Source: Microbacterium sp. SORGH_AS_0969
GTDB lineage: Bacteria > Actinomycetota > Actinomycetes > Actinomycetales > Microbacteriaceae
Direction: 5' to 3'
Assembly: GCF_030818255.1 (NCBI RefSeq)
Contig: NZ_JAUTAG010000001.1
Coordinates: forward strand, 3,472,001 to 3,536,000
Length of the DNA stretch: 64,000 bases
Positions 1 through 58,988 of the stretch are shown piece after piece. The notes beneath the pieces were generated by a model, which ran no database searches, was not told the DNA's origin, and saw nothing but the letters and a program-made list of their open reading frames with translations. Position numbers and translations under genes: made by a program. The number at the start of each line of letters is the position of its first letter. The stretch's first letter is position 1.

Positions 1-1
1 G

Positions 2-394
2 GATGCCGTCGCCGACGTCGTCTCGACCGGCACGACGCTGCGTCAGGCGGGGCTCGAGATCTTCGGGCCGGTGCTCCTCGAGAGCGACGCCGTGCTCATC
101 TCCGGACCGAACGATGCCGAGGGCACCGAAACGCTCCTGCGCCGTCTGCGCGGGGTGCTCGCCGCGCGCAAGTACGTGCTCGTCGATTACGACCTGCCCG
201 CCAACCTCGTCGACCAGGCCATCGCGGTCGCGCCGGGCCTCGAATCGCCGACGATCTCCCCGCTGCGCGACCCCGAGTGGGTGGCCGTGCGCGTGATGAG
301 CCCGCGCCGTGACGTCAACCGCGTCATGGACGAGCTGTACGCGATCGGCGCGCGCGCGATCCTCGTCACCGAGATCCTCGCCGCGAGGCTCTGA
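2..394 (+). CDS. hisG: ATP phosphoribosyltransferase HisG, C-terminal part
   Basis: Partial gene: only the last 130 codons are inside the window, open from base 2 in frame. HisG condenses ATP with PRPP in the first step of histidine synthesis and is the feedback-controlled enzyme. The visible part begins in the PRPP-binding loop (a D-x-V-S-T-G-T-T-L pattern close to the window edge) and continues through the C-terminal regulatory domain of the long-form enzyme, ending ...ILAARL. The TGA stop shares one base with the hisF ATG, so the genes are translationally coupled. The identification rests on the PRPP-loop match, the typical HisG tail and the hisF/hisI neighbours. Confidence 0.93.
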
Positions 395-1158
395 TGACCC
401 TCGCGCGCCGCGTCATCCCGTGCCTCGACGTCGCGGGGGGCCGCGTCGTGAAGGGCGTGAACTTCCTCGACCTGCGCGACATGGGCGACCCGGTCGAGCT
501 GGCGAAGCTCTACTTCGACCAGGGCGCTGACGAGGTCACCTTCCTCGACGTCACCGCCACGGTCGACGAGCGGTCGACGACCTATGACGTCGTCCGCCGC
601 ACCGCCGAGCAGGTCTTCATCCCCCTGACCGTCGGTGGGGGAGTGCGTTCGGCTGATGACGTGGCCCGGCTTCTCGCCGTCGGAGCCGACAAGATCGGCG
701 TCAACTCCGCAGCGATCGCCCGCCCTGCGCTGATCGATGAAATCGCCGACCGCTTCGGCGCGCAGGTCATCGTGCTGTCGCTCGACGTCAAGCGGGCGGC
801 ATCCACACCCTCGGGCTTCGTCGTGACCACGCACGGCGGCCGCACCGAGACGACCCTCGACGCCCTCGACTGGGCCCGCGAGGCCGTCGAGCGCGGAGCC
901 GGAGAGCTGCTCGTCAACTCGATCGACGCCGACGGCACGAAGCAGGGCTTCGATCTCGAACTCGTGCGTCTCATGCGCCAGATCGCGGCGGTCCCGGTGA
1001 TCGCCTCCGGCGGCGCGGGCGCCCTGGAGCACTTCGCCCCCGCGGTGCAAGCCGGTGCCGACGCCGTGCTCGCGGCATCCGTGTTCCACTCCGGTCAGCT
1101 CACCGTCGGACAGGTGAAAGACGCCATGGCCGCCGAAGGAATCGAGGTGCGCCGATGA
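394..1158 (+). CDS. hisF: Imidazole glycerol phosphate synthase subunit HisF
   Basis: Cyclase subunit of the HisF-HisH complex. It uses ammonia delivered by HisH to convert PRFAR into imidazole glycerol phosphate and AICAR in the cytoplasm. The 254-residue length is normal for this TIM-barrel family. Near the N-terminus [17 protein letters not shown] carries the first catalytic Asp, and LSLDVK in the middle supplies the second; phosphate-binding glycine-rich segments ([14 protein letters not shown]) are intact. It overlaps hisG by one base and hisI by four (ATGA), which marks a tightly coupled operon. hisH is not in the window, so its partner must lie upstream. Confidence 0.97.
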
Positions 1159-1493
1159 GCGTCGACCGCGTCACGTACAACGCCGACGGCCTCGTCCCCG
1201 CCGTCATCCAGCAGTTCGACTCGCGCGAGGTGCTGATGATGGGGTGGATGGATGCCGAGGCCCTGAACCGCACGCTCACCACCGGCCGTGTGACCTTCTG
1301 GTCGCGCTCGCGTCAGGAGTACTGGCGGAAGGGCGATACGTCGGGTCACATCCAGATCGTCAAGGGTGCGCGGCTGGACTGCGACGGCGACACCCTGCTG
1401 ATCGAGGTCGACCAGGTCGGCGCGGCATGCCACACGGGTGACCACACCTGCTTCGACGCCGACGACCTGCACCCGGTCGTGGGGGAGCGCTGA
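1155..1493 (+). CDS. hisI: Phosphoribosyl-AMP cyclohydrolase HisI
   Basis: Hydrolyses the purine ring of phosphoribosyl-AMP, the third step of histidine synthesis. The 112-residue length fits the stand-alone cyclohydrolase without a HisE domain. Family signatures are clear: [20 protein letters not shown] in the middle, DCDGDTLL for metal binding, and the zinc-site cysteines in [11 protein letters not shown]. The start ATG overlaps the hisF stop by four bases, and its own stop shares one base with the next start. In mycobacterial order trpE would follow a little downstream; here the Trp-associated membrane gene follows at once. Confidence 0.96.
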
Positions 1494-2080
1494 TGCGGCG
1501 TCCCCGCTCGCTCGCCGTCGTCGCGATGCTCCTCGCCGGAGCGATCGGCGTCATCGGATCGACCCAGACCTGGATCGACGTCACCCTCGACGACGGCGCG
1601 CAGCAGACCCTCGCCGTGCCGGGCTCGGACGCCCTCCCCGTCCTGACGCCCTTGAGCCTGGCCGCGCTGGCGCTCGGTGCCGCGTTGTCGATCGCAGGCC
1701 CCGTCGTGCGGTACGTCTTCGGCGCGATCGGTCTCGCGATCGCCGTCCTCCTCGGCTTCGGCGCCGCACAGATCGTCTTCGCCACGCCGGTTTCGGCCAC
1801 GGCCGCGACGGTGACCGACGCCACGGGGATCTCGGGAGTGGATGCCGTCGGCGACCTCGTCGCGGGACTCTCGCTGACCCCGTGGCCCGCGGTCACGCTG
1901 GTCGCCCAGGTCCTGCTCGCGGCTGCCGCCGTCTTCACGCTCGTGACCGCGCGTCGGTGGGGGTCGAATGCGGGCCGGAAGTACCGCACGACCGGCGACT
2001 CCGCGGCGGAAGCCTCGCGCCCGCAAGACGCGATCGACTCGTGGGACGATCTGTCGCGCGGGGACGACCCGACTGCCTGA
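1493..2080 (+). CDS. Trp biosynthesis-associated membrane protein
   Basis: A 195-residue integral membrane protein of the family found in actinobacterial trp clusters (the position of Rv1610 in M. tuberculosis). Four hydrophobic segments are visible: residues about 5-22, 49-67, 70-92 and 130-152. The first is followed by a QTWIDV motif typical of the family, and a Gly/Arg-rich cytosolic tail ends the protein. The biochemical role is unknown; genetic linkage alone ties it to tryptophan. It overlaps hisI by one base. The usual upstream partner trpE is absent, and a 150-base gap followed by the giant secreted protein separates it from trpC. Confidence 0.85.
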   Translation: MRRPRSLAVVAMLLAGAIGVIGSTQTWIDVTLDDGAQQTLAVPGSDALPVLTPLSLAALALGAALSIAGPVVRYVFGAIGLAIAVLLGFGAAQIVFATPVSATAATVTDATGISGVDAVGDLVAGLSLTPWPAVTLVAQVLLAAAAVFTLVTARRWGSNAGRKYRTTGDSAAEASRPQDAIDSWDDLSRGDDPTA

Positions 2081-2111
2081 AGCATTCTCCGCCTGAGTGT
2101 TGAATTCAGAC

Positions 2112-2141
2112 TTGCTGTGATTTAGCTGAACACGATAGCTT
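2112..2141 (+). promoter_or_regulatory. Putative promoter of the giant secreted protein
   Basis: An AT-richer patch in the 149-base gap contains TTGCTG (2112-2117) and TAGCTT (2136-2141) with an 18-base spacer, a reasonable -35/-10 pair. It leaves an untranslated leader of about 80 bases before the ATG at 2230, which is preceded by a GGGGGAG ribosome site. The gene may therefore be expressed independently of the his-trp operon. No known riboswitch fold was recognised in the leader. Confidence 0.4.
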
Positions 2142-2229
2142 TGCGCCAGGGATCCGGCCGGTGCGTTTCGCGGCCTGATCTCCGGGCGGGGCGCTACCCG
2201 AGCGCGGACCCGCATATGGGGGAGTCAGC

Positions 2230-5200
2230 ATGCGCGCGCGCCGCTATCCGTACGTCCACTTGCGTCTACGAGGGGCACGCAACAATCACCGCGCCGCTGC
2301 GGCGATGCTCATCGCTGTCGCGCTCAGCATGGGGAGCGTGCCCGCCGCCTGGGCTGACCCGACACCGTCGCCGACGTCGACCGTACGCACGAATGCCGCA
2401 GCCTTCACCGTGACGCCGAAGCCGACCTTCACCGGGTCGATGACGGTGGGCTCGAAGCTGACCGCGGTCACGGGGACGTGGAAGCCCGCGCCGGACTCGT
2501 TCGCGTACCAGTGGCGACGCAACGGAACGCTGATCGCCGGTGCCACCGCCCCGACATACAAGCTGGCCGCCCAAGACGCGGGCACGAAGATTACCGTGAC
2601 GGCCATCGGCATTAAGACCGGGTACCCCCGCACCTCGGTCACGAGCGACGCCAAAGCGGCCACGACGGCCTCATTCACCACAGCGCCCGCACCGACCATC
2701 ACCGGGAAGGCCGCAATCGGCTCGACTCTGACCGGCGCGACAGGGACGTGGACGCCGACGCCCGGCACCTTCACCTATCAGTGGAAGCGGGGCGGGGCAG
2801 CGATCTCGGGAGCGACCGCGACGACGTACCGCGTGGTCGCCGCAGATGCGGGAGCATCGATCACCCTGACCGTGACGGCGTCGGCTCCCGGGTACAGGAC
2901 GACGGCTCGGACCAGTTCGGCTGTCGCGATTCCCGCACGCACATTCACGACGACTCCCGTTCCGACGTACAGCGGCAAGATGACCGTCGGATCGACCCTC
3001 ACGGCAGCGCCGGGCACCTGGGCACCGGTGCCCGACTCCCTGACGTACCAGTGGAGCCGCGACGGCGCTGCAATTACGGGGGCGACGTCCCAGACCTACA
3101 CGATCGCCCCCGCGGACAGCGGCAAGAAGATCACGGTCACCGTGACGGCCCGCAAAGCCGGCTACACCCCGGCGTCGAAGACCAGCGCCGCGCAGACCTC
3201 GGCTCCGGCTCCCTTCACCAGCGCTCCCTCCCCCTCGATCACCGGCACGGCGAGCGTGGGGTCGACCGTTCGGGCCGTGACCGGCACGTGGGCACCCGTG
3301 CCCGCGACATTCGCCTACCAGTGGAGGCGCAACGGAACGGCGATCGCCGGAGCGACCGCATCCACGTATCGGGTGGGGACAGCGGATGCCGGGACCCGGC
3401 TGAGTGTCAGCGTGACGGCGTCAGCTCCGGGATACGTGACGACGACCCGCGTCAGCTCGTCTACTTCGGTGCCGACGTTGACGTTCGCAACCGTTCCTGT
3501 TCCGACGTTCTCAGGCACACCGACTGTCGATTCCGTGCTCACCGCTTCCACGGGGTCGTGGGCACCCACGCCCGACTCCTACACGTTCCAGTGGAACCGG
3601 GGCAGCAGCCCGATCGCCGGCGCGACAGCGTCGACCTACCAAGTCGTCGCGGCCGACGTGGGCTCTGCGATCACCGTCACCGTGACAGCACGCAAAGCGG
3701 GTTACACCGCTGCCGCGGCGACCAGTACCGCGGCGACGGTGGGCGCGGCGACCTTCACGAGCGCCCCGACGCCTGCGGTGACGGGGCTGGCCCGCGTGGG
3801 GGGAACCCTGTTCGGCGTAGTGGGGACCTGGGCACCCCAGCCGAGCAAGCTGACGTACCAGTGGACGCGTAATGGCATCGCCATCCCGGGCGCGACGTCG
3901 ACCGCCTATCTCGTGACCACGGAGGATCGCGGCGCCCAGCTGCGATTCACGGTCACGGGGTCGAAGGCCGGATACACGACGCTGAAGCGGATGAGTGCCG
4001 CCCAGACGGTTCCTGGCGTCTTCTCCTCCACCCCGACGCCGCGCATCTCCGGCACGATCGAGATCGGCAAGACGGTGACCGCCTCGACGGGAACGTGGAC
4101 TCCGACCCCGGACTCGTTCGGCTACCAGTGGAAGCGCAACGGTACAGCGATCAACGGCGCGACATCGAAGACCTATGCGATCACGCAGGCTGACGCGGGA
4201 GCCAAACTCACCGTCACGGTCACCGGCATGAAGGCGAACTACGCTTCGACGAGCAAGACCAGCACGGATAAGCTCGTCCCGTCGACGGTGATCGTGCGCG
4301 TGACGAGCGACATCGTCGCGGACACGACCTGGGCCCCGACATTCCCGACGGTGTACGTCGTCTCGAAGGATGTCTCGGTGGCTCCCGGTTCGACGCTCAC
4401 GATCGCGGCGGGCACTGTCGTAAAATTCGCGGAAAACACGACGTTCATGGTTGAGGGTTCGTTGGTCGTGAATGGCACGTCGGCGGCGCCGGTGACGTTC
4501 ACCTCCCTCGCCGACGACAGTGTCGGGGGAGACACCCTCGCCGACGGCGACGACACCAAACCCGAGGACAACCGCTGGAACGGCATCCACGTCAACGAAA
4601 ACGCCACCCTGGTCGCCGATCAGACGCGTGTGACCTTCTCCTCCGGCATCACCTCCGACAAGAGCTCTCCCGTGGCTTCCGCTCGGGTAACCGGATCCAT
4701 TGTCGATAGCAGGATCGCGTTGCACTCCTCCGCGGGCGCGGTCACCGTCACGGGCACGACCGTTCGCGGATCGATTGGTGCGTCCAGCCGAGGCGGCGCA
4801 ACCACCGTGACCAACAACACCGTCAGTCGCGACACCTCGAACGAGGATTGGGACGGGGGCGGATTCGTCACGGTCACCCGCGCGGACGGCTTCGACGCCG
4901 CCTACCCGCTGAACGTCACCGGGAACACGATCACGAACGGATCGCTCACGGTGGTTTCCGCCAACAACAGCGCACAAGCCGCGCCGATCAAGGTGACCGG
5001 AAACACCATCTCCGAAGCAGTCGAGACACCCCTCACCGTCGCCGACGTGAAACTTCGTCCCTCCAACGTCCTCGCCAACACCCTCCGCAACAACACGATC
5101 AACGCCATCGCCCTCTCCGGGACACTCGTCGAGAACTGGACCCTGCCCACCACAGGCCCCCGACTCATCCTCAACCGAGATCTCTCCTACTACGACAGCA

Positions 5201-8200
5201 GCGTCGACGGCGGCATCCGAATCAGCGCCGGAACAACACTCACCGCCCCCGCCGGCACGACCGTCAAGGCCGAGGACAATGTCGGAATCACGGTTGAGGG
5301 TTCGTTGGTCGTGAATGGCACGTCGGCGGCGCCGGTGACGTTCACCTCCCTCGCCGACGACAGTGTCGGGGGAGACACCCTCGCCGACGGCGACGACACC
5401 AAACCCGAGGACAACCGCTGGAACGGCATCCACGTCAACGAAAACGCCACCCTGGTCGCCGATCAGACGCGTGTGACCTTCTCCTCCGGCATCACCTCCG
5501 ACAAGAGCTCTCCCGTGGCTTCCGCTCGGGTAACCGGATCCATTGTCGATAGCAGGATCGCGTTGCACTCCTCCGCGGGCGCGGTCACCGTCACGGGCAC
5601 GACCGTTCGCGGATCGATTGGTGCGTCCAGCCGAGGCGGCGCAACCACCGTGACCAACAACACCGTCAGTCGCGACACCTCGAACGAGGATTGGGACGGG
5701 GGCGGATTCGTCACGGTCACCCGCGCGGACGGCTTCGACGCCGCCTACCCGCTGAACGTCACCGGGAACACGATCACGAACGGATCGCTCACGGTGGTTT
5801 CCGCCAACAACAGCGCACAAGCCGCGCCGATCAAGGTGACCGGAAACACCATCTCCGAAGCAGTCGAGACACCCCTCACCGTCGCCGACGTGAAACTTCG
5901 TCCCTCCAACGTCCTCGCCAACACCCTCCGCAACAACACGATCAACGCCATCGCCCTCTCCGGGACACTCGTCGAGAACTGGACCCTGCCCACCACAGGC
6001 CCCCGACTCATCCTCAACCGAGATCTCTCCTACTACGACAGCAGCGTCGACGGCGGCATCCGAATCAGCGCCGGAACAACACTCACCGCCCCCGCCGGCA
6101 CGACCGTCAAGGCCGAGGACAATGTCGGAATCACGGTTGAGGGTTCGTTGGTCGTGAATGGCACGTCGGCGGCGCCGGTGACGTTCACCTCCCTCGCCGA
6201 CGACAGTGTCGGGGGAGACACCCTCGCCGACGGCGACGACACCAAACCCGAGGACAACCGCTGGAACGGCATCCACGTCAACGAAAACGCCACCCTGGTC
6301 GCCGATCAGACGCGTGTGACCTTCTCCTCCGGCATCACCTCCGACAAGAGCTCTCCCGTGGCTTCCGCTCGGGTAACCGGATCCATTGTCGATAGCAGGA
6401 TCGCGTTGCACTCCTCCGCGGGCGCGGTCACCGTCACGGGCACGACCGTTCGCGGATCGATTGGTGCGTCCAGCCGAGGCGGCGCAACCACCGTGACCAA
6501 CAACACCGTCAGTCGCGACACCTCGAACGAGGATTGGGACGGGGGCGGATTCGTCACGGTCACCCGCGCGGACGGCTTCGACGCCGCCTACCCGCTGAAC
6601 GTCACCGGGAACACGATCACGAACGGATCGCTCACGGTGGTTTCCGCCAACAACAGCGCACAAGCCGCGCCGATCAAGGTGACCGGAAACACCATCTCCG
6701 AAGCAGTCGAGACACCCCTCACCGTCGCCGACGTGAAACTTCGTCCCTCCAACGTCCTCGCCAACACCCTCCGCAACAACACGATCAACGCCATCGCCCT
6801 CTCCGGGACACTCGTCGAGAACTGGACCCTGCCCACCACAGGCCCCCGACTCATCCTCAACCGAGATCTCTCCTACTACGACAGCAGCGTCGACGGCGGC
6901 ATCCGAATCAGCGCCGGAACAACACTCACCGCCCCCGCCGGCACGACCGTCAAGGCCGAGGACAATGTCGGAATCACGGTTGAGGGTTCGTTGGTCGTGA
7001 ATGGCACGTCGGCGGCGCCGGTGACGTTCACCTCCCTCGCCGACGACAGTGTCGGGGGAGACACCCTCGCCGACGGCGACGACACCAAACCCGAGGACAA
7101 CCGCTGGAACGGCATCACCATCGGGGACGGCGGTGTGCTGTCTGGCTCGAATCTGACAGTGACCTACGCCTCGACCGCGATCTTGTCGACGGGCACGGTC
7201 GATCTCTCTTCGTCACGTCTCGAGAAGGCGTATCAGTGCATCTCAGCGCAGTCCGGGACCGTATCGATCACTGGCAGTATCCAGGGGTGCGAAGCGGGTG
7301 TGGAAGCGACCGACGGCGGACGGGTGATCGCACGAAACGTCTCTTGGGGAACCGACGACGGGCCTGAGCCGTTCGGGAAGTCCGTTCCCATCGAGGGCAA
7401 CGTCGACGTCGTCCCGTGGGTCGGGTACGTCGCACCGCCGACACCACCCGTAGTTCCAGTGGCCGCTGCGCCGAGCACATGTGCTGACCTCATCGTCCTG
7501 GTGGCGCGCGGATCCGGTGAAGTCCCGAAGGGTCCGTGGAACGTGGCGTCGGACCCCGACCTCTACGATGTCCAAACATTCCAGACCACTGTTGAATCCA
7601 CCTACGCACAACGAGGTGTGGGAGCGAAGATGCAGCAAGTCTTGACCGGTCAAGAGACACGTAGCGGAGAGGAGTGGCTCGTCGGCGACGCCGATAGCGG
7701 CCTGTTGAACCACCTCAGTGACGAGTACAAGAACAGCACACTGATCGTCCCCATCGTCTACCCGGCATCCGACGTCAGTCTTCTGGGCGAGGCATTCAAC
7801 CTCCTCAAGCCCAAGCCCGCGAAGTTGTTGGAATACATGTCTAGCATTCGGAGCGGTACCGACGCCCTTCGCGAGACGTACGATGCGATGCGCGAGGAGT
7901 GCAGCGACGAGCAGAGCAAGTTCATCATCTCGGGTTACTCGCAGGGAGCGATGGCCGCACACATCATGCTCTCTGAGGCAGTGCTCGATGGAGAGCCGCT
8001 CGACGACGTGGCCGCCGTCGTCCTGCTGTCAGACCCGCTGCAACAACCTGGCACCTACATGATCGACGGCACTGGTAGCGGCAAGCGTGGTCTCGTAGCG
8101 TCACTGTTCGAGTTCTCCGCCGCAAGGAACCTCTGGGACGAGGCGTTCTACGGGGACTATCCGATGCAGGATGCCCGCTCGTACCCATCGGAGTTGTCGA

Positions 8201-8397
8201 GTCGCACGTACGCCTACTGCACCGACGGTGATCTCCTTTGCGCGCCCTACGTTGCGGGGGGTTCACGAAGCCCGTGGTTGTGGGACTACCCCAACGAAGT
8301 TCGCTCTCAGTTCGCCCAGATGGCTGGCATTCATGGCGGCTACGGGCCCTCGACGCTCCGTCCATTTGGTCAGAGCGTCGCCGAAAGTGCGTTCTGA
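2230..8397 (+). CDS. Giant secreted Ig-like / beta-helix protein with C-terminal cutinase-like hydrolase
   Basis: 2055 residues. A long Sec signal peptide (basic N-terminus, hydrophobic 23-40) probably ends after AAWA at about residue 42. Seven Ig-like repeats of about 90 residues follow (59-687), each with a GTW...YQW.R.G..I.GAT..TY core. Residues about 690-1720 form a right-handed parallel beta-helix with three identical 281-residue units. After a Pro-rich linker comes a cutinase-family alpha/beta-hydrolase (1751-2055): CADLIVLVARGSGE oxyanion loop, nucleophile Ser1904 in GYSQGA, Asp1999 or Asp2001 inside the C1997...C2004 pair, and His2035 in GIHGGY. The likely job is an extracellular esterase held out on an adhesin-like stalk; the substrate (cutin, polyester or lipid) is unknown. 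No sortase motif or TM anchor is visible at the C-terminus. It splits the trp cluster, and its codon use is less GC-biased than its neighbours, which suggests acquisition. Confidence 0.88.
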   Translation: MRARRYPYVHLRLRGARNNHRAAAAMLIAVALSMGSVPAAWADPTPSPTSTVRTNAAAFTVTPKPTFTGSMTVGSKLTAVTGTWKPAPDSFAYQWRRNGTLIAGATAPTYKLAAQDAGTKITVTAIGIKTGYPRTSVTSDAKAATTASFTTAPAPTITGKAAIGSTLTGATGTWTPTPGTFTYQWKRGGAAISGATATTYRVVAADAGASITLTVTASAPGYRTTARTSSAVAIPARTFTTTPVPTYSGKMTVGSTLTAAPGTWAPVPDSLTYQWSRDGAAITGATSQTYTIAPADSGKKITVTVTARKAGYTPASKTSAAQTSAPAPFTSAPSPSITGTASVGSTVRAVTGTWAPVPATFAYQWRRNGTAIAGATASTYRVGTADAGTRLSVSVTASAPGYVTTTRVSSSTSVPTLTFATVPVPTFSGTPTVDSVLTASTGSWAPTPDSYTFQWNRGSSPIAGATASTYQVVAADVGSAITVTVTARKAGYTAAAATSTAATVGAATFTSAPTPAVTGLARVGGTLFGVVGTWAPQPSKLTYQWTRNGIAIPGATSTAYLVTTEDRGAQLRFTVTGSKAGYTTLKRMSAAQTVPGVFSSTPTPRISGTIEIGKTVTASTGTWTPTPDSFGYQWKRNGTAINGATSKTYAITQADAGAKLTVTVTGMKANYASTSKTSTDKLVPSTVIVRVTSDIVADTTWAPTFPTVYVVSKDVSVAPGSTLTIAAGTVVKFAENTTFMVEGSLVVNGTSAAPVTFTSLADDSVGGDTLADGDDTKPEDNRWNGIHVNENATLVADQTRVTFSSGITSDKSSPVASARVTGSIVDSRIALHSSAGAVTVTGTTVRGSIGASSRGGATTVTNNTVSRDTSNEDWDGGGFVTVTRADGFDAAYPLNVTGNTITNGSLTVVSANNSAQAAPIKVTGNTISEAVETPLTVADVKLRPSNVLANTLRNNTINAIALSGTLVENWTLPTTGPRLILNRDLSYYDSSVDGGIRISAGTTLTAPAGTTVKAEDNVGITVEGSLVVNGTSAAPVTFTSLADDSVGGDTLADGDDTKPEDNRWNGIHVNENATLVADQTRVTFSSGITSDKSSPVASARVTGSIVDSRIALHSSAGAVTVTGTTVRGSIGASSRGGATTVTNNTVSRDTSNEDWDGGGFVTVTRADGFDAAYPLNVTGNTITNGSLTVVSANNSAQAAPIKVTGNTISEAVETPLTVADVKLRPSNVLANTLRNNTINAIALSGTLVENWTLPTTGPRLILNRDLSYYDSSVDGGIRISAGTTLTAPAGTTVKAEDNVGITVEGSLVVNGTSAAPVTFTSLADDSVGGDTLADGDDTKPEDNRWNGIHVNENATLVADQTRVTFSSGITSDKSSPVASARVTGSIVDSRIALHSSAGAVTVTGTTVRGSIGASSRGGATTVTNNTVSRDTSNEDWDGGGFVTVTRADGFDAAYPLNVTGNTITNGSLTVVSANNSAQAAPIKVTGNTISEAVETPLTVADVKLRPSNVLANTLRNNTINAIALSGTLVENWTLPTTGPRLILNRDLSYYDSSVDGGIRISAGTTLTAPAGTTVKAEDNVGITVEGSLVVNGTSAAPVTFTSLADDSVGGDTLADGDDTKPEDNRWNGITIGDGGVLSGSNLTVTYASTAILSTGTVDLSSSRLEKAYQCISAQSGTVSITGSIQGCEAGVEATDGGRVIARNVSWGTDDGPEPFGKSVPIEGNVDVVPWVGYVAPPTPPVVPVAAAPSTCADLIVLVARGSGEVPKGPWNVASDPDLYDVQTFQTTVESTYAQRGVGAKMQQVLTGQETRSGEEWLVGDADSGLLNHLSDEYKNSTLIVPIVYPASDVSLLGEAFNLLKPKPAKLLEYMSSIRSGTDALRETYDAMREECSDEQSKFIISGYSQGAMAAHIMLSEAVLDGEPLDDVAAVVLLSDPLQQPGTYMIDGTGSGKRGLVASLFEFSAARNLWDEAFYGDYPMQDARSYPSELSSRTYAYCTDGDLLCAPYVAGGSRSPWLWDYPNEVRSQFAQMAGIHGGYGPSTLRPFGQSVAESAF
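2404..4290 (+). repeat. Seven in-gene Ig-like repeats, about 270 bp each
   Basis: Repeats start at F59 (2404), F149 (2674) and then roughly every 90 codons, the last at residue 598 (4021). Each begins FT..P.P...G and has a conserved GTW, YQW.R and GAT..TY. Unlike the downstream beta-helix units they have diverged at the DNA level, so this array is old. Repeats of this type are common in secreted actinobacterial proteins, where they act as spacers or adhesive beta-sandwich domains. Confidence 0.8.
4448..7116 (+). repeat. Three identical 843-bp tandem repeats plus a partial fourth
   Basis: The unit beginning GGTTGAGGGTTCG recurs at about 4448, 5291, 6134 and 6977, a period of exactly 843 bases (281 codons). 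The three full units read as identical wherever compared, and the fourth copy stops matching at about 7116 after AACCGCTGGAACGGCATC. The repeats encode whole beta-helix modules, so copy number can change without frame loss. Identity at synonymous sites means very recent duplication or ongoing conversion. Short-read assembly could easily miscount the copies. Confidence 0.95.
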
Positions 8398-8452
8398 TCC
8401 AGGACAGCCCTATTGTCGAGCCGCCCACGCCGGCCCGCACCCTCTCGTTCGA

Positions 8453-8458
8453 TAGACT
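8453..8458 (+). promoter_or_regulatory. Putative -10 element for the trpCBA group
   Basis: TAGACT lies 46 bases before the HGxxPAAW gene, in the 107-base gap after the giant protein. It matches the TANNNT elements seen before many other genes here. Because the giant gene separates trpC from hisI, a local promoter would be needed for tryptophan gene expression. No convincing -35 and no Trp-rich leader peptide were seen. Confidence 0.4.
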
Positions 8459-8504
8459 GGCCTGACGCTTTCCCCTGCGCCCGCGCGCGACTGTAAGGAG
8501 CCCC

Positions 8505-8735
8505 ATGAGCAACCCCATCGGTGATCCCGGCCACGGACACTCGCCCGCCGCCTGGACGGCCGTGATCATCATGCTGCTCGCGTTCACGCTCGGAACGCTG
8601 TTCTTCTGGCTCGACATGCCCGTGCTCGTGTGGGCCTCGGTGGGTCTGCTCGTCGTCGGCGCGATCGTCGGATGGGCCATGGGCAAGGCCGGATACGGCG
8701 CGAACGGCTCGAAGACCAGCCCGAAGGCCCACTGA
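8505..8735 (+). CDS. HGxxPAAW family small membrane protein
   Basis: 76 residues with the diagnostic motif HGHSPAAW at about residues 10-17, followed by two membrane helices (about 16-35 and 40-60) and a short Gly/Lys-rich tail. This family is found almost exclusively beside trpC in Microbacteriaceae and relatives; no function is known. TAAGGAG, a strong ribosome site, precedes the ATG. It is separated from trpC by two bases, so it should be co-transcribed and may be involved in membrane association of the tryptophan pathway, which is only a guess from position. Confidence 0.85.
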   Translation: MSNPIGDPGHGHSPAAWTAVIIMLLAFTLGTLFFWLDMPVLVWASVGLLVVGAIVGWAMGKAGYGANGSKTSPKAH

Positions 8736-8737
8736 CC

Positions 8738-9514
8738 GTGCTGGCCGATCTCACGGCCGGGGCGGTAGAAGACGCAGAGAAGCGCGCCGAGACGCGTTCC
8801 CTCGCCGAGGTCGAGCGCGACGCTCTCGCGCAGACCCCCGCGCGAGACGCTCTGGCGATGCTCGCCCCCGCCGACCGGGTCAAGATCATCGCCGAGGTCA
8901 AGCGCGCCAGCCCGTCCCGGGGAGACCTCGCGTCGATCCCCGACCCCGCCCGTCAGGCCCGCTTGTACGAGGAGGGCGGTGCGTCCGCGATCTCGGTGCT
9001 CACCGAGGGCCGCAAGTTCAAGGGCAGCCTCGCCGACCTCGAGGCCGTCCGGGCCGCGGTCAGCGTCCCCGTGCTGCGCAAGGACTTCATCGCCACGCCG
9101 TACCAGGTGCTGGAAGCCCGCGCCTCGGGTGCCGACCTCGCTCTCCTGATCGTCGCCGCGCTCGACCGGAAGACCCTCACCGAGCTCTACGGCCTCGTCA
9201 ACGACCTCGGTATGACGGCCCTCGTCGAGACGCACTCGGCGGATGAACTCGCCCGCGCCGCCGACCTCGGCGCGAAGCTCATCGGCGTCAACGCCAGAAA
9301 CCTGTCGACCTTCGAGCTCGACCGCGACCTGTTCGGCTCCCTTGCCGACCGGTTCCCGGCAGACGCCGTCAAGATCGCCGAGTCGGCGGTGCTCGCACCC
9401 GCCGACGTGGCCCACTACCGCGCCGCGGGGGCCGATGTCGTGCTCGTGGGCGAAGCCCTCGTCACGGGCGACCCCGTCGCCACGCTCCGCGCGTTCCTTC
9501 AGGAGACGTCATGA
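8738..9514 (+). CDS. trpC: Indole-3-glycerol phosphate synthase
   Basis: Converts CdRP to indole-3-glycerol phosphate with loss of CO2 and water. The 258-residue TIM barrel is monofunctional (no PRAI domain). Signatures: [13 protein letters not shown] with catalytic Lys, VLRKDFI with the second Lys, ALVETH with catalytic Glu, GVNARNL and the phosphate site ESAVLAP. The start is taken as GTG 8738, two bases after the previous stop, because residues from there match the family N-terminus; longer readings run into the upstream gene. The ATGA overlap with trpB shows translational coupling. Confidence 0.96.
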
Positions 9515-10842
9515 CCACCAGCCTGCGCGACCAGAAGGGGCCGTTCTTCGGTGACTTCGGCGGCCGGTACATGCCCGAGTCGCTCATCGCCGCGATCGAC
9601 GAGCTGACCGCGGTCTACGAATCGGCGATGGCCGACCCCGAGTTCCTCGCCGAACTGCGGGCCCTGCTGCACGATTACGCCGGCCGCCCGTCGGCCCTCA
9701 CCGAGGTTCCTCGCTTCGCCGAGCACGCGGGTGGCGCGCGCGTCTTCCTCAAGCGCGAAGACCTGAACCACACCGGCTCGCACAAGATCAACAACGTGCT
9801 CGGACAGGCGCTGCTCACCAAGCGTCTGGGCAAGACGCGCGTGATCGCCGAGACGGGTGCCGGCCAGCACGGCGTCGCCACCGCGACGGCCGCCGCCCTC
9901 TTCGGTCTCGACTGCGTCGTCTACATGGGCGAGGTCGACACCGAGCGGCAGGCTCTCAACGTCGCGCGCATGCGTCTGCTCGGCGCCGAGGTCGTGCCCG
10001 TCACGACCGGCTCGCGCACGCTGAAAGACGCGATCAACGAGGCCTACCGCGATTGGGTCGCCTCGGTTGAGACGACCAACTACATCTTCGGCACCGCCGC
10101 GGGACCCCACCCCTTCCCGGCGATGGTCCGCGACTTCCAGAAGATCATCGGCGAAGAGACCCGCGCCGAGTTCCTCGAGCGCATCGGACGTCTCCCCGAC
10201 GCCGTCTTCGCCTGCGTCGGCGGCGGATCCAACGCGATCGGCATGTTCGACGCGTTCCTCGACGACGAGGGCGTCGCGCTGTACGGCGTCGAGGCAGCCG
10301 GCGACGGTGTCGACACCCCCAAGCACGCGGCATCCATCGAGCGGGGTCGTCCCGGCGTCCTGCACGGCGCCCGCACGTACGTGCTGCAGGATGAAGACGG
10401 CCAGACCACCGAGTCGCACTCGATCTCGGCGGGCCTCGACTACCCCGGCGTGGGTCCCGAACACGCCTGGCTGGCAGACATCGGCCGCGCGCACTACATC
10501 CCCGCGACCGACGACGAGGCCATGCAAGCCCTGCGTCTGCTCTCGCGCACCGAGGGCATCATCCCCGCGATCGAGTCGGCCCACGCCCTGGCCGGAGCCC
10601 TGCGCGTCGGTCGCGAACTGGGTCCGGATGCCGTCATCGCGGTGAACCTCTCCGGTCGAGGCGACAAAGACATGGACACCGCCGCGCGCTACTTCGACCT
10701 CTACGATGCCGAGCACGCACCTCCGCCCGAGGGTCGCCCGGCGCAGACCGCCGGCGCCGAGACGGTGGCATCCGCCGCCGGTTCGCCGGTCGATGTGACG
10801 CCGGCCCCGGATGCCGCGAGCGGCGCAGGGGTGGAGCTGTGA
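9511..10842 (+). CDS. trpB: Tryptophan synthase beta chain
   Basis: Joins indole and serine to make tryptophan with PLP, in an alpha2-beta2 complex with TrpA. PLP Lys sits in the [13 protein letters not shown] motif; [10 protein letters not shown] binds the cofactor phosphate, and GRGDKD lies near the C-terminus. At 443 residues it is about 40 longer than usual. The excess is a C-terminal Pro/Ala/Gly-rich tail after FDLYDAEH that has no family counterpart and is probably disordered. It overlaps trpC by four bases and trpA by four. Confidence 0.97.
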
Positions 10843-11630
10843 CCTCGCGCGTCTCCGCGGCGATCGAAGCCGCCCACGCCGAAGGTCGCGGCGCGTTCGT
10901 CGCCTACCTGCCCGCCGGATTTCCCGACGTCGCCACGAGCATCGAGGCCATCATTGCCCTGGCCGAGGCCGGCGCCGACGTCATCGAACTCGGCCCTCCG
11001 TACAGCGACCCGGTCATGGACGGTCTGGTCATCCAGGAGGCGACCCAGACGGCCCTCGCCAACGGCTTCCGTATGCGCGATCTCTTCACGATCATCCGCG
11101 AGGTCACGGCACGTACAGATGTCCCGATCCTGGTCATGACGTACTGGAACCTCGTCGAGCAGTACGGCGTCGACCGCTACGCCGACGAGCTCGTCGCCGC
11201 CGGGGGAGCGGGGCTCATCACCCCCGACATCACGCCCGACGCCGCCGCCGCGTGGATCGCCACGAGCGAGCGAACCGGCCTCGACCGGGTGTTCCTCGCC
11301 GCCCCCACCTCGACCGACGAGCGCCTGCGCATGATCGTCGAGGCCTCGACGGGCTTCGTCTACACCGTTTCGACGATGGGGATCACCGGGGAGCGGGCCG
11401 AGCTGGATGCCGCCGCCCGACGACTCGTCGAACGACTGCGAGCGCACGGTGCCGACCACGCGTGCGTCGGTATCGGCATCTCCAACGCCGCTCAGGTGGC
11501 CGGAGTGGTCGAGTACGCCGACGGCGCGATCGTCGGAACCGCCCTGGTGAAGGCGCTCCGTGACGGCGGTGTCGAGGGTCTGTCCACCCTCGCACGCGAG
11601 CTGTCCGCGGGCACGGCGCGGCGCGCCTAG
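10839..11630 (+). CDS. trpA: Tryptophan synthase alpha chain
   Basis: Cleaves indole-3-glycerol phosphate to indole and glyceraldehyde-3-phosphate and channels indole to TrpB. The 263-residue length is normal. The motif [14 protein letters not shown] supplies the catalytic Glu and Asp; the loop usually reading GIPFSDP is slightly altered to GPPYSDP. Phosphate-binding glycines appear in GIGISNAAQ. The start is GTG overlapping the trpB TGA (GTGA). Its TAG stop is also the first half of a TAGACT element that may serve as the lgt promoter. Confidence 0.96.
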
Positions 11631-11633
11631 ACT
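11628..11633 (+). promoter_or_regulatory. Putative -10 element, leaderless lgt mRNA
   Basis: TAGACT overlaps the trpA stop codon and ends 7 bases before the lgt ATG at 11641. With transcription starting about 7 bases downstream, the message would begin at the ATG. No ribosome binding site is present in CTTTCGC, which agrees with a leaderless start. Confidence 0.5.
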
Positions 11634-11640
11634 CTTTCGC

Positions 11641-12646
11641 ATGACGTTCGCCCTCTCGAGCGCCGCCTCCGGCGTGCTCGCCAGCATTCCGAGCCCGACG
11701 ATCTCCTACGTCGATCTCGGTCCGTTCCGCATCCACTTCTATGCCCTGTGCATCGTCGCGGGCATCATCGTCGCCCTGCTTCTCACGAACGCACGGCTGA
11801 CGCGGCGCGGCGCGGAGAAGTGGGTCGTCATCGACATCTGCCTCCTGGCGGTGCCGCTCGCCACCATCGTCGCGCGTGTCTACCACGTCGCCACGCACGC
11901 GGGCTTCTACTTCGGCCCCGGCTCCAACCCGTGGAACATCACCCAGCCCGGCTCCGTCTGGGCCATCTGGGTAGGGCGGGATCGCCATCTACGGCGCGCT
12001 CATCGGCGGCGCCATCGGCGCGATCCTCGGGTGCAAGTGGAGCGGTATCCGCTTCTGGACGTTCGCCGACGCCCTCGCCCCGGGCCTCATCATCGCGCAG
12101 GCGATGGGCCGCTTCGGCAACTGGTTCAACCAGGAGCTCTTCGGTCAGCCCACCGACCTGCCGTGGGGCCTCGAGATCGCCCCGGGCAACCCGGCGATCC
12201 CCGTCGGCCTGCCGGCCGGCACGCTGTTCCACCCCACGTTCCTGTACGAGGTCATCTGGAACCTCCTCGGCGCGGCCGTCATCCTGTACGTCGGCAAGCG
12301 CTTCACCCTGCAGTGGGGCAAGCAGTTCGCGATCTACCTCATGTGGTACAGCGCGGGCCGCATCGTCTGGGAGTCGATCCGCGTCGACCCCAGCGACATC
12401 ATCCTCGGCCTGCGCACGAACGTGTGGGCGGCGATCTTCGGTGTGGTGCTCGGTCTGGTGATCTTCATCGTCCAGTCGCGCCGCCACCACGGCCTCGAAC
12501 CCTCGCCCTACGTACCCGGGCGCGAATCCAAGGCTCCGGGGGCTGTAGACTCAACCGACCCCTCTGACTTCGTCGACGTGAGCGAGCCGCCCGCGACGAG
12601 CGACACCGTCGGCACCAGCGCCACAAGCAGCCCCGCCACGAACTAA
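11641..12646 (+). pseudogene. lgt: Prolipoprotein diacylglyceryl transferase, +1 frameshift
   Basis: Lgt moves diacylglycerol from phosphatidylglycerol onto the lipobox Cys of prolipoproteins. The N-terminal frame (from ATG 11641) gives the normal membrane segments up to AIWVG at about codon 111. The rest (GIAIYGALIGG, then GRFGNWFNQELFG, the Lgt signature) is in the +1 frame to the TAA at 12644-12646. Removing one base at 11973-11976 (for example one G of GTAGGGC) restores a single 334-residue protein of normal length. As written, translation stays open in the wrong frame to 12567. Because three lipoprotein genes lie in this window, a working Lgt is expected; a sequencing error is a serious possibility. 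Confidence 0.88.
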
Positions 12647-12698
12647 CACTCTGGGCCGACGTCGTCCCATTCGAAGCATCAACGTGAGGACGGTTGAT

Positions 12699-15600
12699 AT
12701 GGCTTCCAGCCTGCGTTCCGACACCGTCGGAGGCTCGTTCCCGGCCCGACAGGGAATGTACGACCCGTCGTTCGAGAAAGACGCCTGTGGCCTGGCCATG
12801 GTCGCGACTCTCCGCGGCGAGGCCGGACACGACATCGTCGACCTGGCCCTGACCGCGCTGCGCAACCTCGAGCACCGCGGTGCCATCGGCTCCGACGCCG
12901 GCACCGGCGACGGGGCGGGCATCCTCACGCAGATGCCGGATGCCTTCCTGCGCGAGGTCGTGGACTTCGACCTGCCGCCGGTGGGGGAGTACGCAGCGGG
13001 AATGGTCTTCCTCCCCCTCGGGCACGACGAGCGCGCCGCCATGAAGTCGGGGATCGAAGAGATCGCGCGTCACGAGAACCTCGAGGTGCTCGGCTGGCGC
13101 GAGGTGCCCACCGAGCCCGACAACCTGGGCAAGCTCGCCTTCGAGGCACGGCCCGCATTCGAGCAGCTGTTCGTCTCGCGTCCGGCCTCCGGCGACCAGC
13201 CCGCGCTGTCGGGGATCGCGCTCGATCGTCGCGTGTACCGCCTGCGCAAGCGCGCCCGTCACGAGCTCGACGCCTACTTCGTGTCGCTGTCGAGCCGCAC
13301 GCTCGGGTACAAGGGCATGGTCACGACGCTCCAGCTCGAGCCGTTCTACCCCGACCTCCAGGACGAGCGCTTCGCGTCCGAGCTCGCGGTGGTCCACTCC
13401 CGCTACTCGACGAACACCTTCCCGTCGTGGCCGCTCGCGCAGCCCTTGCGCATGCTCGCGCACAACGGCGAGATCAACACCGTCAAGGGCAACCGCAACT
13501 GGATGCGTGCGCGTCAGTCGCAGCTCGAGTCCGAGCTGATCGGCGATGTGCGGCCTCTCCTGCCCATCTGCACCGAGGGCGCGAGCGACTCCGCCTCGTT
13601 CGACGAGGTCCTCGAGCTGCTCACCCTGACCGGGCGCAGCCTCCCGCACGCGATCATGATGATGGTGCCCGAGGCCTACGAGAAGCAGGCCACCATCGAC
13701 CCCGACCTGCGGGCGTTCTACGACTACCACTCCATGCAGATGGAGCCGTGGGACGGCCCCGCGGCGCTCATCTTCACCGACGGCACGCTCGTCGGCGCCA
13801 CGCTCGACCGCAACGGCCTGCGCCCGGGGCGCTGGACCGAGACCACCGACGGCCTCGTCGTCATCGGTTCCGAGACCGGCGTGCTCGACTTCGCCCCGGA
13901 GCGGATCAAGCGCCGCGGACGCCTGCAGCCCGGTCGCATGTTCCTCGTCGACACGGCTGAGCGCCGCATCGTCGAAGACGAAGAGATCAAGGCGAACCTC
14001 GCTGCGCTCGAGCCCTGGCAGGAGTGGGTGGACGCCGGTCGCGTCAAGCTCAGCGAACTGCCCGAGCGCGAGCACATCGTGCACCCGATCGCATCCATCA
14101 CGCGTCGTCAGCGCACCTTCGGCTACACCGAAGAAGAAGTCCGGCTGCTGCTGACGCCGATGGGTCAGGGCGGCGCCGAGCCGCTCGGCGCGATGGGGAG
14201 CGACGCGCCCGTCGCCGTCCTCAGCGACCGCCCACGCCTGCTCTTCGACTACTTCTCGCAGCAGTTCGCGCAGGTGACCAACCCGCCGCTCGACTCGATC
14301 CGCGAAGAGGTCGTCACCTCGCTGTCGCTGGGACTCGGACCCGAGCGCAACCTTCTCGACTGGGGTCCCGAGCACACACGCACCGTGACGCTCGACTTCC
14401 CGGTCATCGACAACGACGAGCTCGCGAAGATCCAGCACATCGACACTGCCCTCAAGGGTCGGTCGTCGGTGACGATCCGCGGCCTCTACCGCGTCGAGGC
14501 CGGACACAAGGGCCTGCAGAAGCGCCTCGCGCAGATGTGTAACGAGGTCGACCAGGCCATCGAGGACGGCGCCGAGTTCATCGTGCTCAGCGACCGCGAC
14601 TCGAACAAGGATCTCGCGCCCATCCCGTCGCTGCTCATGCTCGCGGCCGTGCACCACCACCTCATCCGCAACGAGACCCGCATGAAGGTCGGGCTCGTGG
14701 TCGAGGCCGGTGACGTGCGCGAAGTGCACCACGTGGCGACCCTGATCGGCTACGGCGCCTCGGCAGTCAACCCGTACCTGGCGATGGAGACCGTCGAGTA
14801 CCTCGTGCGCGCGGGCTTCATCACCGGCATCACGCCCGAGAAGGCCGTCAAGAACCTGATCTACGCGCTCGGCAAGGGCGTGCTGAAGATCATGTCGAAG
14901 ATGGGCATCTCGACCGTGTCGTCGTACGCGGGCGCGCAGGTGTTCGAAGCGGTGGGACTGTCGCGCGAGTTCGTCGACGCGTACTTCACCGGCACCGAGT
15001 CGAAGCTCGGCGGCGTCGGCCTCGACGTCATCGCTGCCGAGAACGCGGCGCGTCACGAGTACGCCTACCCCGAGGACGCCGCGGCTCGTGCGCACGAGCG
15101 CCTGTGGACCGGCGGTGAGTACCAGTGGCGTCGCGACGGTGCGCCGCACCTGTTCAACCCCGACACCGTGTTCCGCCTGCAGCACGCCACCCGTGAGCGC
15201 CGGTACGACATCTTCCGCGAGTACACGAAGCTGATCGACGACCAGGCGCACGAGCTCAAGACCCTCCGCGGCCTCTTCGAGCTGCGCACCGGGGTCCGCC
15301 CGCCCGTGCCGATCGACGAGGTCGAGCCCGTGTCGGCGATCGTGAAGCGCTTCTCGACCGGGGCGATGAGCTACGGCTCGATCTCGAAAGAGGCGCACGA
15401 GGTCCTGGCCGTCGCGATGAACCAGATCGGCGGCAAGTCGAACACCGGTGAGGGCGGAGAAGACGTCGACCGCCTTCTCGACCCCGCGCGTCGCAGTGCC
15501 ATCAAGCAGGTGGCATCCGGGCGATTCGGCGTGACGAGCCTCTACCTGACCGAGGCGGACGACATCCAGATCAAGCTCGCCCAGGGCGCCAAGCCCGGCG

Positions 15601-55171: not shown

Positions 55172-55230
55172 CCCGGCCGCCGACGCTCCCGCGGTGCGCC
55201 GCGAGTCGGGGTGCGGCGGGTTCGCGGCGC

Positions 55231-55323
55231 GGGGCGCAGCGCCGTGCGGGGCGGAGCGCGGGGCGGGGCGGAGCGCGGGGCGCAGCGCCGTGCGGGGCGG
55301 GGCGGGGCGGGGCGCAGCGCCGT
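55231..55323. repeat. Low-complexity GGGGCGCAGCGCCGT repeats
   Basis: GGGGCGCAGCGCCGT recurs at 55231-55245, 55277-55291 and 55309-55323, embedded in GCGGGGCGGAGC-type sequence. The unit contains the self-complementary GGCGCAGCGCC. It lies between the convergent oxygenase and VIT1 genes, where it may fold strongly and help termination. No coding potential is evident. Confidence 0.6.
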
Positions 55324-56798: not shown

Positions 56799-58988
56799 TC
56801 AGGAGTGCACGCGCTTGCGCAGCAGGTCGATGCGCGCCTGCAGCTGCGCGACGGTTGCGTGCGACACGGCAGGTCCCCCGCAGAGACGCCGGAGCTCGGC
56901 GTGGACGAGGCCGTGCGGCTCGCCGCTCTGCCGCGCGTAGAGACCGACCATCGTGTTGAGAAGCTGACGCTGCTCTTTGAGCGTGCGGTGGAGAGGCGCG
57001 GGAAGCCCGCCCTCGTCGACGGAGGGCGGTTCGACGCCGTTCTCCTTCTCGTTCGCCTCGCGCGTGGAGCGATGCCGCGACTGCCGGGTGGCGCGCGACA
57101 TGAGCACCTCGTGCACCTGCTCGGGCTCGAGAAGACCCGGGATGCCGAGGAACTCCTCCTCCTCGATGGTTCCGGGCACCGCGAGCTGGCCGAACTCCTG
57201 CCCGTCGAACATCACGCGGTCGAAGTGCGCGAGCGAACCCAGCGCCTGGTACTCGAACTCCTGCTCGAGCGCGTCGGATGCCTTGTCCTCGCGCTCGGCG
57301 GCATCCATCATGTCTTCTTCGGCGTTCCACTGGTCGTCCGCGTCGCTGTCGCGGTCGAGGGCGTGCTCGCGCTGGGCCTCCATCTCACCCGCGAGGGCGA
57401 GCAGCTGCGGCACGTTCGGCAGGAACACGCTCGCGGTCTCACCGCGGCGCCGCGCGCGGACGAAACGGCCGATGGCCTGGGCGAAGAACAACGGGGTCGA
57501 GGCGCTCGTGGCGTAGACGCCGACGGCGAGGCGGGGGACGTCGACGCCCTCCGACACCATGCGGACGGCGACCATCCAGCGGCTCGTGCCCTTGGAGAAC
57601 TCCTCGATGCGACTGGAGGCCTCAGCCTCGTCGGAGAGGACGACGGTGACCTTCTCGCCGCTGATGTCCTCGAGGATGGCGGCGTAGGCGCGCGCGGCGG
57701 TCTGGTCGGTCGCGATGACGAGGCCGCCGGCATCCGGAACCGTCTCTCGCACCTCGGTGAGGCGCCGGTCGGCGGAGCGGAGGACCGCGGGAATCCAGTC
57801 GCCGTTCGGATCGAGCGCGGTGCGCCAGGCCTGGGACGTGATGTCTTTGGTGTTGTCCTGGCCGAGCTGGGCCTCCATCTCTTCCCCTGCCTTGGTGCGC
57901 CAGCGCATCTGCCCGGCGTAGACGAGGAAGAAGACCGGCCGGACGACGCCGTCTTCGAGGGCGCGTTTGTAGCCGTAGGCGTAGTCGGTTCGGGAGAGGC
58001 GGATGCCCTTGGAGTTCGGGTGGTACTCGACGAACGGGATGGGCGCCGTGTCGCTGCGGAACGGCGTTCCCGAGAGCAGCAGACGGCGGGTCGCTCGACT
58101 GTAGGCCTCGCGCAGCGCGTCGCCCCAACTGAGGGCGTCGCCGCCGTGGTGCACCTCGTCGAGGATGACCAGGGTTCTGGCATCCATCGTCAGTCGCTGG
58201 TGCACCTCGGCCTTGACGGCGACCTGCGCGTAGGTGACGGCGACACCGTGGTACTGCCGCGAGGGCGTGGCGTGGCGGTTCGAGAAGAACGGATCGAGTC
58301 GGATGCCGACCCGCGCGGCCGCCTCGGCCCACTGGGACTTGAGGTGCTCGGTGGGGGCGACCACGACGATGCGATCGACGACGCGGCGACGCATGAGCTC
58401 GGACGCGAGGCGCAGGGCGAAGGTGGTCTTACCGGCGCCCGGGGTCGCGGCGGCGAGGAAGTCGCGGGGACCCTTGCCCACACCGTCGGGACCGTCGGAG
58501 CCGAAGTACTGATCCAGTGCCTCGGCCTGCCACGCACGCAGACGCTGGGCGGTTCCCCAGGGCGCACGCTGCGGGAACGAGGGTGAGAGGTGCTCGGCGG
58601 CGAACGACCCGAAGTGGGGCTCGGTGCCGTCGAGCGGAGCCGGGGCATCGCCCGGCATCGGGTGGTCGGCAACGGGCGCGGTGGCGTGGGTGGGATCGAC
58701 GGGAGCGGATGCCGCGGGCTCGGTGCCCGCGGCAGCGGGAGACACGGGAGCGGGGCCGGGGCTCGCCGACGGGCCAGGGCTTGCGACGGGGCCGGGACTC
58801 GCGACGGGGCCGGGACTCGCCACCAGGGCTGGGCTCGCGACCGGGCCGGGGCTGGCCACCGGGCCCGGACTCGCAACCGGGCCGGGGCTCGCAACCGGGC
58901 CAGGGCTCGCGATCTTCAGGGGCGCGCCGCCATCGGCGGGCGTCGGAGGGTGTTCCAGGTTCTGGGTGCGGGCTTCGTCTTCCAGCAT
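56799..58988 (-). CDS. DEVH-box helicase with Pro-Gly repeat N-terminus
   Basis: 729 residues from ATG 58988, set by GGAGG 7 bases upstream. Residues 27-80 are hexapeptide repeats of ASPGPV, then a disordered Ala/Pro stretch, and the helicase begins at about 135. Walker A TPGAGKTTFALR, DEVHH, SGTPFRSD (motif III region), and SEGVDVPRLAVGV with QAIGRFVRARR (motif VI) give an SF2 enzyme of the SSL2/XPB-like DEAD/DEAH type. The C-terminal 200 residues are charged and helical. Substrate, DNA or RNA, unknown. Divergent from the SGNH gene, with an inverted repeat between. Confidence 0.87.
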   Translation of the reverse strand: MLEDEARTQNLEHPPTPADGGAPLKIASPGPVASPGPVASPGPVASPGPVASPALVASPGPVASPGPVASPGPSASPGPAPVSPAAAGTEPAASAPVDPTHATAPVADHPMPGDAPAPLDGTEPHFGSFAAEHLSPSFPQRAPWGTAQRLRAWQAEALDQYFGSDGPDGVGKGPRDFLAAATPGAGKTTFALRLASELMRRRVVDRIVVVAPTEHLKSQWAEAAARVGIRLDPFFSNRHATPSRQYHGVAVTYAQVAVKAEVHQRLTMDARTLVILDEVHHGGDALSWGDALREAYSRATRRLLLSGTPFRSDTAPIPFVEYHPNSKGIRLSRTDYAYGYKRALEDGVVRPVFFLVYAGQMRWRTKAGEEMEAQLGQDNTKDITSQAWRTALDPNGDWIPAVLRSADRRLTEVRETVPDAGGLVIATDQTAARAYAAILEDISGEKVTVVLSDEAEASSRIEEFSKGTSRWMVAVRMVSEGVDVPRLAVGVYATSASTPLFFAQAIGRFVRARRRGETASVFLPNVPQLLALAGEMEAQREHALDRDSDADDQWNAEEDMMDAAEREDKASDALEQEFEYQALGSLAHFDRVMFDGQEFGQLAVPGTIEEEEFLGIPGLLEPEQVHEVLMSRATRQSRHRSTREANEKENGVEPPSVDEGGLPAPLHRTLKEQRQLLNTMVGLYARQSGEPHGLVHAELRRLCGGPAVSHATVAQLQARIDLLRKRVHS
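58749..58910 (-). repeat. 18-bp in-gene repeats encoding ASPGPV
   Basis: About nine in-frame copies of an 18-base unit (on the plus strand variants of GGGACTCGCGACGGGGCC) encode ASPGPV hexads at the helicase N-terminus. The sequence varies between units (GACTCGC / GGCTCGC). Such slippage-prone arrays often vary in copy number between strains. Confidence 0.85.

Follow-up and report, generated by a model that had tools for sequence, protein, structure and literature searches.

A cutinase-family head on an immunoglobulin-like and beta-helix stalk in Microbacterium, with tandem units and C-terminal ends that differ between relatives

Why would a cutinase-family domain sit at the end of a 2055-residue protein? 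The question is raised by a gene of Microbacterium sp. SORGH_AS_0969, located in a 64,000-nucleotide stretch of its genome (contig NZ_JAUTAG010000001.1, positions 3,472,001 to 3,536,000; referred to here as the window, whose first base is position 1). The gene encodes immunoglobulin (Ig)-like repeats, a beta-helix and a cutinase-family domain, in that order. We consider that the product is probably exported and forms a rod on the cell surface or in association with the wall, with a serine esterase of the cutinase family at the distal C-terminus. As far as sequence comparisons go, the best reading would be that it is a rod of variable length with exchangeable C-terminal heads, similar to the Periscope Proteins, and that the head in this gene is an esterase. 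The domain order, the perfect tandem units, the species differences in unit number and sequence and a fixed chromosomal site in eight genomes can be seen directly, as can the fact that close relatives with the stalk in common have unlike C-terminal heads. The most telling features are the perfect 843-base repeats, the fixed site in the his-trp cluster and the different tip in the related genome G352, all of which were overlooked in the first-pass annotation of the window.

The esterase head and its stalk

The gene is a single uninterrupted open reading frame with the bounds and length given in the first-pass annotation; the genome is assembled as one contig of 3.94 Mb. Cutinase (PF01083) is the only Pfam family above its cut-off in the protein (residues 1862-2006, 45.8 bits with a cut-off of 25.9, E 8.6e-12), and the head is the only PF01083 match in this genome at E <= 0.001. 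Cutinases have their catalytic residues in the order Ser, Asp and His, with the Asp located between two Cys residues, and the head has the same pattern. Ser1904, Asp2001, His2035, Cys1751, Cys1891, Cys1997 and Cys2004 are invariant in all nine stalk-borne heads of alignment A1, with Asp2001 four residues past Cys1997 and three residues ahead of Cys2004; in a wider alignment of 38 rows, the Ser, the Asp and both Cys are invariant and the His is present in at least 90%. Ser1904 (in GYSQGA) and His2035 were placed correctly in the annotation, which had left the acidic residue as either Asp1999 or Asp2001; of these, Asp2001 is invariant.

The annotation also expected a cutinase-like fold at this end, and structure prediction agrees with it. 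The AlphaFold2 model of the head, built with 38 sequences, has a mean predicted local distance difference test score (pLDDT) of 78.5, with model residues 1-7 and 42-63 below 50. Foldseek ranks MSMEG_6394 (7e-9), a Cryptococcus cutinase-like protein, Rv3802c, acetylxylan esterases and cutinases first; 33 of its first 34 rows are cutinase-family or acetylxylan-esterase entries and the remaining one is a thioesterase (3lcr_B). Template modelling (TM) scores over the query are 0.30-0.52 for the top cutinase-type matches, which indicates a match in the core of the head but not in its insertions. Profile comparison with solved structures likewise points to a cutinase-type head. The long stalk is thus capped by a domain with a predicted cutinase-like fold and conserved catalytic residues. 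The head resembles PF01083 or carbohydrate esterase family 5 proteins (MSMEG_6394, 3aja; Rv3802c, 5w95; Cryptococcus, 2czq; the F. solani cutinase) in its fold, in its Ser-Asp-His order and in the Cys residues around the Asp. Unlike them, it has about 305 residues, contains a poorly predicted insertion and is mounted on a stalk of about 1700 residues. The GC content of the head is 0.61 versus 0.69 in the window, which we do not count as proof of transfer.

Both kinds of repeat named in the annotation hold up. The NCBIfam model ZirU_fam matches seven stretches of the protein, although its 58.6 bits are under the model cut-off of 100; seven Ig repeat marks were also counted, and Pfam Ig families are above their cut-offs in the homologues L167 and L050. 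The AlphaFold2 model of residues 600-1075 is all-beta (pLDDT 87.1), and its best Foldseek matches are beta-helix enzymes and Ig domains, at E 3e-4 or weaker and with low TM-scores. The Pfam family Beta_helix (PF13229) is above its cut-off in L050, but not in the protein itself. More Ig repeats, 42-43% identical to those of this gene, are present elsewhere in the same genome at C1:1241273-1241950 (L165) and C1:788137-788700 (L166); the L165 stretch contains an internal TAG.

Tandem units, heads and the his-trp site

When the DNA was compared with itself at a shift of 843 bases, identity extended over 1825 positions, giving 3.16 mismatch-free copies of a unit that encodes a 281-residue block of the beta-helix. 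G045 (gene L041) has its own 723-base unit in three identical copies, and G352 (L167) has two 840-base units that are 98% alike. Between genes, the units are 90% identical (this gene and G352) or 49% identical (this gene and G045). Units in these three genes are more alike inside a gene than across species, which implies recent duplication or continuing homogenisation. In this comparison across species, our gene has three whole units and a part and G352 has two and a part. Presumably, unequal recombination between identical units would alter the length of the rod.

Repeats of this size break or confuse assemblies, and the gene is broken in the assemblies of three relatives: M. enclense (L045 and L171, on two contigs and counted as one gene), G086 (L042) and G278 (L043, with two unknown stretches). 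The perfect triple could then be an assembly error and the true gene could have another number of units. However, this genome is a single contig, the single-contig G045 also has a perfect triple, and such an error would alter the length and not the architecture. We regard it as a remote prospect.

DNA of the window is 91% identical to the L167 locus of G352 over positions 1-6291, about 89% identical from there to 7116 in the repeats and 97% identical over 8429-13000; positions 7117-8428 have no DNA match in that locus. Where the stalks align, identity is mostly 85-95% per 150 bases, and the last DNA common to the two encodes NRWNGI. The tip of the G352 protein, which we call head B, has no Pfam match up to E 1; among 361 Microbacterium genomes it is present in G352 only, and a relative in another genus (G404) is 25% identical (E 7e-23). 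Thus, a near relative has the same stalk with an unrelated tip, and the more distant M. enclense has the same head at 80% identity. Synonymous divergence (dS) between our genome and G352 is 0.02-0.27 across hisF, hisI, Trp_oprn_chp, DUF6704, trpB and trpA; DUF6704 has 0.018 versus 0.105-0.266 in the other five. The low value might mark the end of a recombined segment; the gene offers just 76 codons, however, and identity along the region is uneven. Presumably, heads are swapped or lost through recombination close to the final coil.

In the head tree, the 12 stalk-borne cutinases make up a single clade (support 90/85; recovered in 92% of 200 bootstrap trees). The 13 free-standing cutinases of Microbacterium and the three rows from mycobacteria or corynebacteria lie outside it; a further row, std_L013, is the same protein as fusion L036, and so the true free-standing rows are 13. 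Our head groups with those of M. enclense and G486, from another genus (99/96), and our stalk groups with that of G352 (100/100). A single clade of the ten cutinase-bearing stalks is rejected by the approximately unbiased test (p-AU 5e-6), and the placement of our stalk with that of G486 is weakly rejected (p-AU 0.043). Most likely, the head has not shared the history of its stalk.

PF01083 is present in 35 of the 366 Microbacterium genomes (31 above cut-off) and in one of 14 well-known control genomes, Corynebacterium glutamicum. In 10 of these 366 genomes, a stalk of Ig repeats and beta-helix terminates in a cutinase: our genome (G000), G008, G017, G045, M. enclense (G053), G086, G198, G202, G273 and G278. 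A contig scan with the head sequence alone had no match and one with alignment A1 did; of the 149 cutinase relatives in the contig search, the 80 best were inspected, and 65 of them are in frames of 400 residues or fewer. The stalk query matched 14 of 361 Microbacterium genomes, namely these ten plus G009, G211, G352 and G356. In the family Microbacteriaceae, 42 of 398 genomes have a match to the stalk alignment at E 1e-20, in most cases through the Ig part alone. Among the family matches listed, eight reach far into the beta-helix, G000 and G045 included; the other six end in a cutinase (G708, G486), in head B (G404) or without a head (G462, G740 and G690, the last with no Ig mark). In total, 20 stalk genes were read, 12 with a cutinase, two with head B and six with no head. 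All six headless proteins stop within or shortly past one common coil (WxGI...VxYx), L237 being about 30 residues longer. A weaker stalk match in G008 (L172, C1:1574000-1586000), left out of the 20, codes for 1193 residues and is a second gene of the Ig and beta-helix-like kind in that genome; its C-terminus is different again. The annotation knew of no described protein with this domain order. It is not peculiar to one gene, since a C-terminal order of this kind is present in 11 others, nine in Microbacterium (three of them incomplete in their assemblies) and two in other Microbacteriaceae; as for a description, none of the open-access papers listed, including those listed for Microbacterium with cutinase, deals with such a protein or tests the stalk-borne clade.

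An enzyme that, like Rv3802c, acts on the cell's own envelope would be in keeping with the fold search, in which Rv3802c and MSMEG_6394 rank near the top. However, stalk-borne cutinases in only 10 of 366 genomes imply that this is not a core function of the genus, and the stalk-borne clade is distinct from the three mycobacterial and corynebacterial rows; we hold such a role to be very improbable.

The stalk gene lies in the his-trp cluster between the genes for Trp_oprn_chp and DUF6704. We read 30 loci, the 30 best of 59 genomes searched. The site is empty in 25 of them, with DUF6704 43 to 482 bases from Trp_oprn_chp, and none of the 25 contains a gene remnant matching our protein at E 0.01; the other five (G000, G053, G009, G017 and G045) have a stalk gene there. 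The stalk genes of G352 and G211 are also at this site, and that of G086 matches on the downstream side. Across these eight genomes, the site holds two cutinase sorts (G000 and G053; G017, G045 and G086), head B (G352) and headless stalks (G009 and G211). The other stalk loci tested do not match the trp-side queries; L043 and L234 are near contig ends. A tentative explanation, to which we give rather less than even weight, is that the site is a tool-holder locus, in which the beta-helix repeats let the rod lengthen or shorten and also permit exchange of the C-terminal tool (one of two cutinase sorts, head B or none) between lineages.

One kind of stalk with different heads also recalls polymorphic toxins, which have a common N-terminal part and varying C-terminal domains. 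The protein could be an antibacterial weapon with exchangeable tips, whose cutinase-like head acts, as phage LysB does, on the envelope lipids of neighbouring cells or on their mycolate esters. The structure 3hc7 (Gene 12 protein), which we take to be a phage LysB, is a weak profile match (E 3e-4). Unlike polymorphic toxin genes, however, our gene has no adjoining immunity gene; DUF6704 comes next, and it also occurs where the site is empty (25 loci). As weapons, stalks that lack a head would serve no purpose. We therefore think this explanation improbable.

Anchoring, function and related systems

How would such a protein be held? Export would proceed through the N-terminal signal. The homologue L235, from another genus, has two CW_binding_2 stretches near its N-terminus (E 3.9e-37), followed by one Ig repeat, the beta-helix and the cutinase. 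If this arrangement is common to our protein, the N-terminal side would be at the cell wall and the esterase would be distal. Judged by typical domain sizes, the rod would measure about 40-50 nm. The protein would then be retained at the wall, and its head would hydrolyse an ester outside the cell, for example in cutin, suberin, an acetylated polysaccharide or a lipid. It is plausible from the domain order, as the annotation suggested, that the enzyme is projected from the cell to act on an external ester. The plant cuticle or a polyester, which it named, is just one of the possible substrates; among actinobacterial proteins of solved structure, MSMEG_6394 and Rv3802c come closest, and Rv3802c has been reported to be a phospholipase/thioesterase (PMC2625445).

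Several observations weigh against a wall-held rod with variable length and exchangeable heads. CW_binding_2 was found in one homologue only, and the Pfam scan recognised no anchor in our protein, which could be freely secreted. Perfect or near-perfect units are present in three genes only (ours, L041 and L167); those of G273 (L048) are 68-69% alike, and long exact repeats are absent from L038, L042, L046 and L050. The length change is observed between species, not within one, and the number of repeats depends on the assembly. The stalk tree is weak, with four of 15 inner branches well supported, nine open and eight long rows, so that head exchange rests mainly on the comparison with G352; a single clade of the two head B stalks is not rejected (p-AU 0.155), and loss and replacement of the head would fit the G352 data as well. 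Our head and that of M. enclense are 80% identical in amino acids, with a nonsynonymous divergence (dN) of 0.14; their dN/dS of 0.08 implies that the head is kept as a protein and counts in favour of the reading, although the dS of 1.8 is near saturation.

Without an anchor, the protein could be a freely secreted depolymerase in which the stalk, both Ig-like repeats and beta-helix, attaches to a polymer and so delivers the esterase there, and the best Foldseek matches of the stalk are in fact polysaccharide-degrading beta-helix enzymes. However, no carbohydrate-binding or lyase/GH28 Pfam family is present in our protein or in the five homologues scanned, headless stalks exist, and L235 has CW_binding_2. 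We consider this alternative unlikely.

Periscope Proteins (SasG, Rib and Sgo_0707), as described from National Collection of Type Cultures (NCTC) strains (PMC8201768), are rods of long, highly identical tandem units that differ in number between relatives and have a functional domain at the rod end. Our protein is similar in its 843-base units, which are 100% identical, in a unit number that differs between species and in a functional domain at what would be the end of the rod, but its unit is a 281-residue beta-helix block, its functional domain is a C-terminal enzyme and no sortase anchor was seen. Fibrillar adhesin-like proteins also combine a stalk with a terminal functional domain, but the Pfam scan recognised no adhesive domain in our protein, and the main text of the survey of that group does not contain the word cutinase (PMC8286594). 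A rod with exchangeable esterase heads would join two subjects that are usually encountered separately: surface rods of variable length, known chiefly from adhesins, and a family of small secreted esterases that has been studied for the breakdown of plant cuticle and polyesters. If such rods exist, bacteria keep a degrading enzyme on a holder of adjustable reach and swap the enzyme by recombination. Relatives with the same stalk at the same site and a different tip offer natural comparisons through which the tip's role can be tested directly.

Features of the window and other cutinase fusions

The coordinates are collected in Table 1. The signal-peptide call is a visual judgement.

Table 1. 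Features of the stalk gene and its neighbours in the window
Feature	Position	Strand	Basis
hisF and hisI, upstream	394..1493	+	TIGR00735, NF000768 above cut-off
Trp_oprn_chp gene, left flank of site	1493..2080	+	PF09534
Whole gene, 2055 residues (signal-like N-terminus, Ig-like array, beta-helix, cutinase)	2230..8397	+	Open reading frame, Pfam
Signal-peptide-like N-terminus, residues 1-43	2230..2358	+	By eye; homologue L167 starts alike
Seven Ig-like repeats, residues ~57-686	2398..4287	+	ZirU_fam, seven stretches under cut-off; marks counted
Beta-helix stalk, residues ~690-1726	4297..7407	+	AlphaFold2 on residues 600-1075, Foldseek
843-base unit, 3.16 perfect tandem copies (4449-5291, 5292-6134, 6135-6977, part 6978-7116)	4449..7116	+	Shift identity
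Head module (last coils and cutinase), no DNA match in G352	7117..8397	+	DNA comparison
Cutinase domain, residues 1751-2055	7480..8394	+	Pfam, alignment, predicted fold
Ser1904, presumed nucleophile in GYSQG	7939..7941	+	Invariant 9/9
Asp2001, presumed catalytic Asp	8230..8232	+	Invariant 9/9
His2035, presumed catalytic His	8332..8334	+	Invariant 9/9
DUF6704 gene, right flank of site	8505..8735	+	PF20447
trpC, trpB, trpA, downstream	8735..11630	+	NF001369, TIGR00263, TIGR00262 above cut-off

Promoter and terminator scans gave no signal at 1900-2300; one terminator-like site is at 8580-8598, inside DUF6704. Matches of the protein to AHSA1, DUF5110, PfaD_N, LipB and AlbA were under cut-off and were dropped as chance. 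An antisense frame of 1050 residues (3511-6663) is probably a by-product of the GC-rich repeats and was disregarded. Among plasmids, 43 records matched, each below 60% identity and with less than 80% of the query covered; the 20 matches listed all fall within residues 45-685, the Ig part.

Other cutinase fusions were read by eye. L039 (G146) and L040 (G210), of 4564 and 4614 residues, have a mid-protein cutinase with repeats on either side, a Gly-Thr-rich stretch and a membrane-like C-terminal segment. In a second kind (L036 of G238, L044 of G334 and L049 of G179), the cutinase is N-terminal and is followed by von Willebrand A-like parts (L036, L044) or PKD-like parts; the L044 and L049 heads group apart from the stalk-borne cutinases in the head tree. 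L061, from a metagenome-assembled genome of an uncultured actinobacterium, has a cutinase and then RCC1-like repeats in a 1083-residue frame. Short tandem repeats are also present elsewhere in the window, at 58751-58912 (54-base unit) and at 55207-55323 (46-, 34- or 17-base unit).

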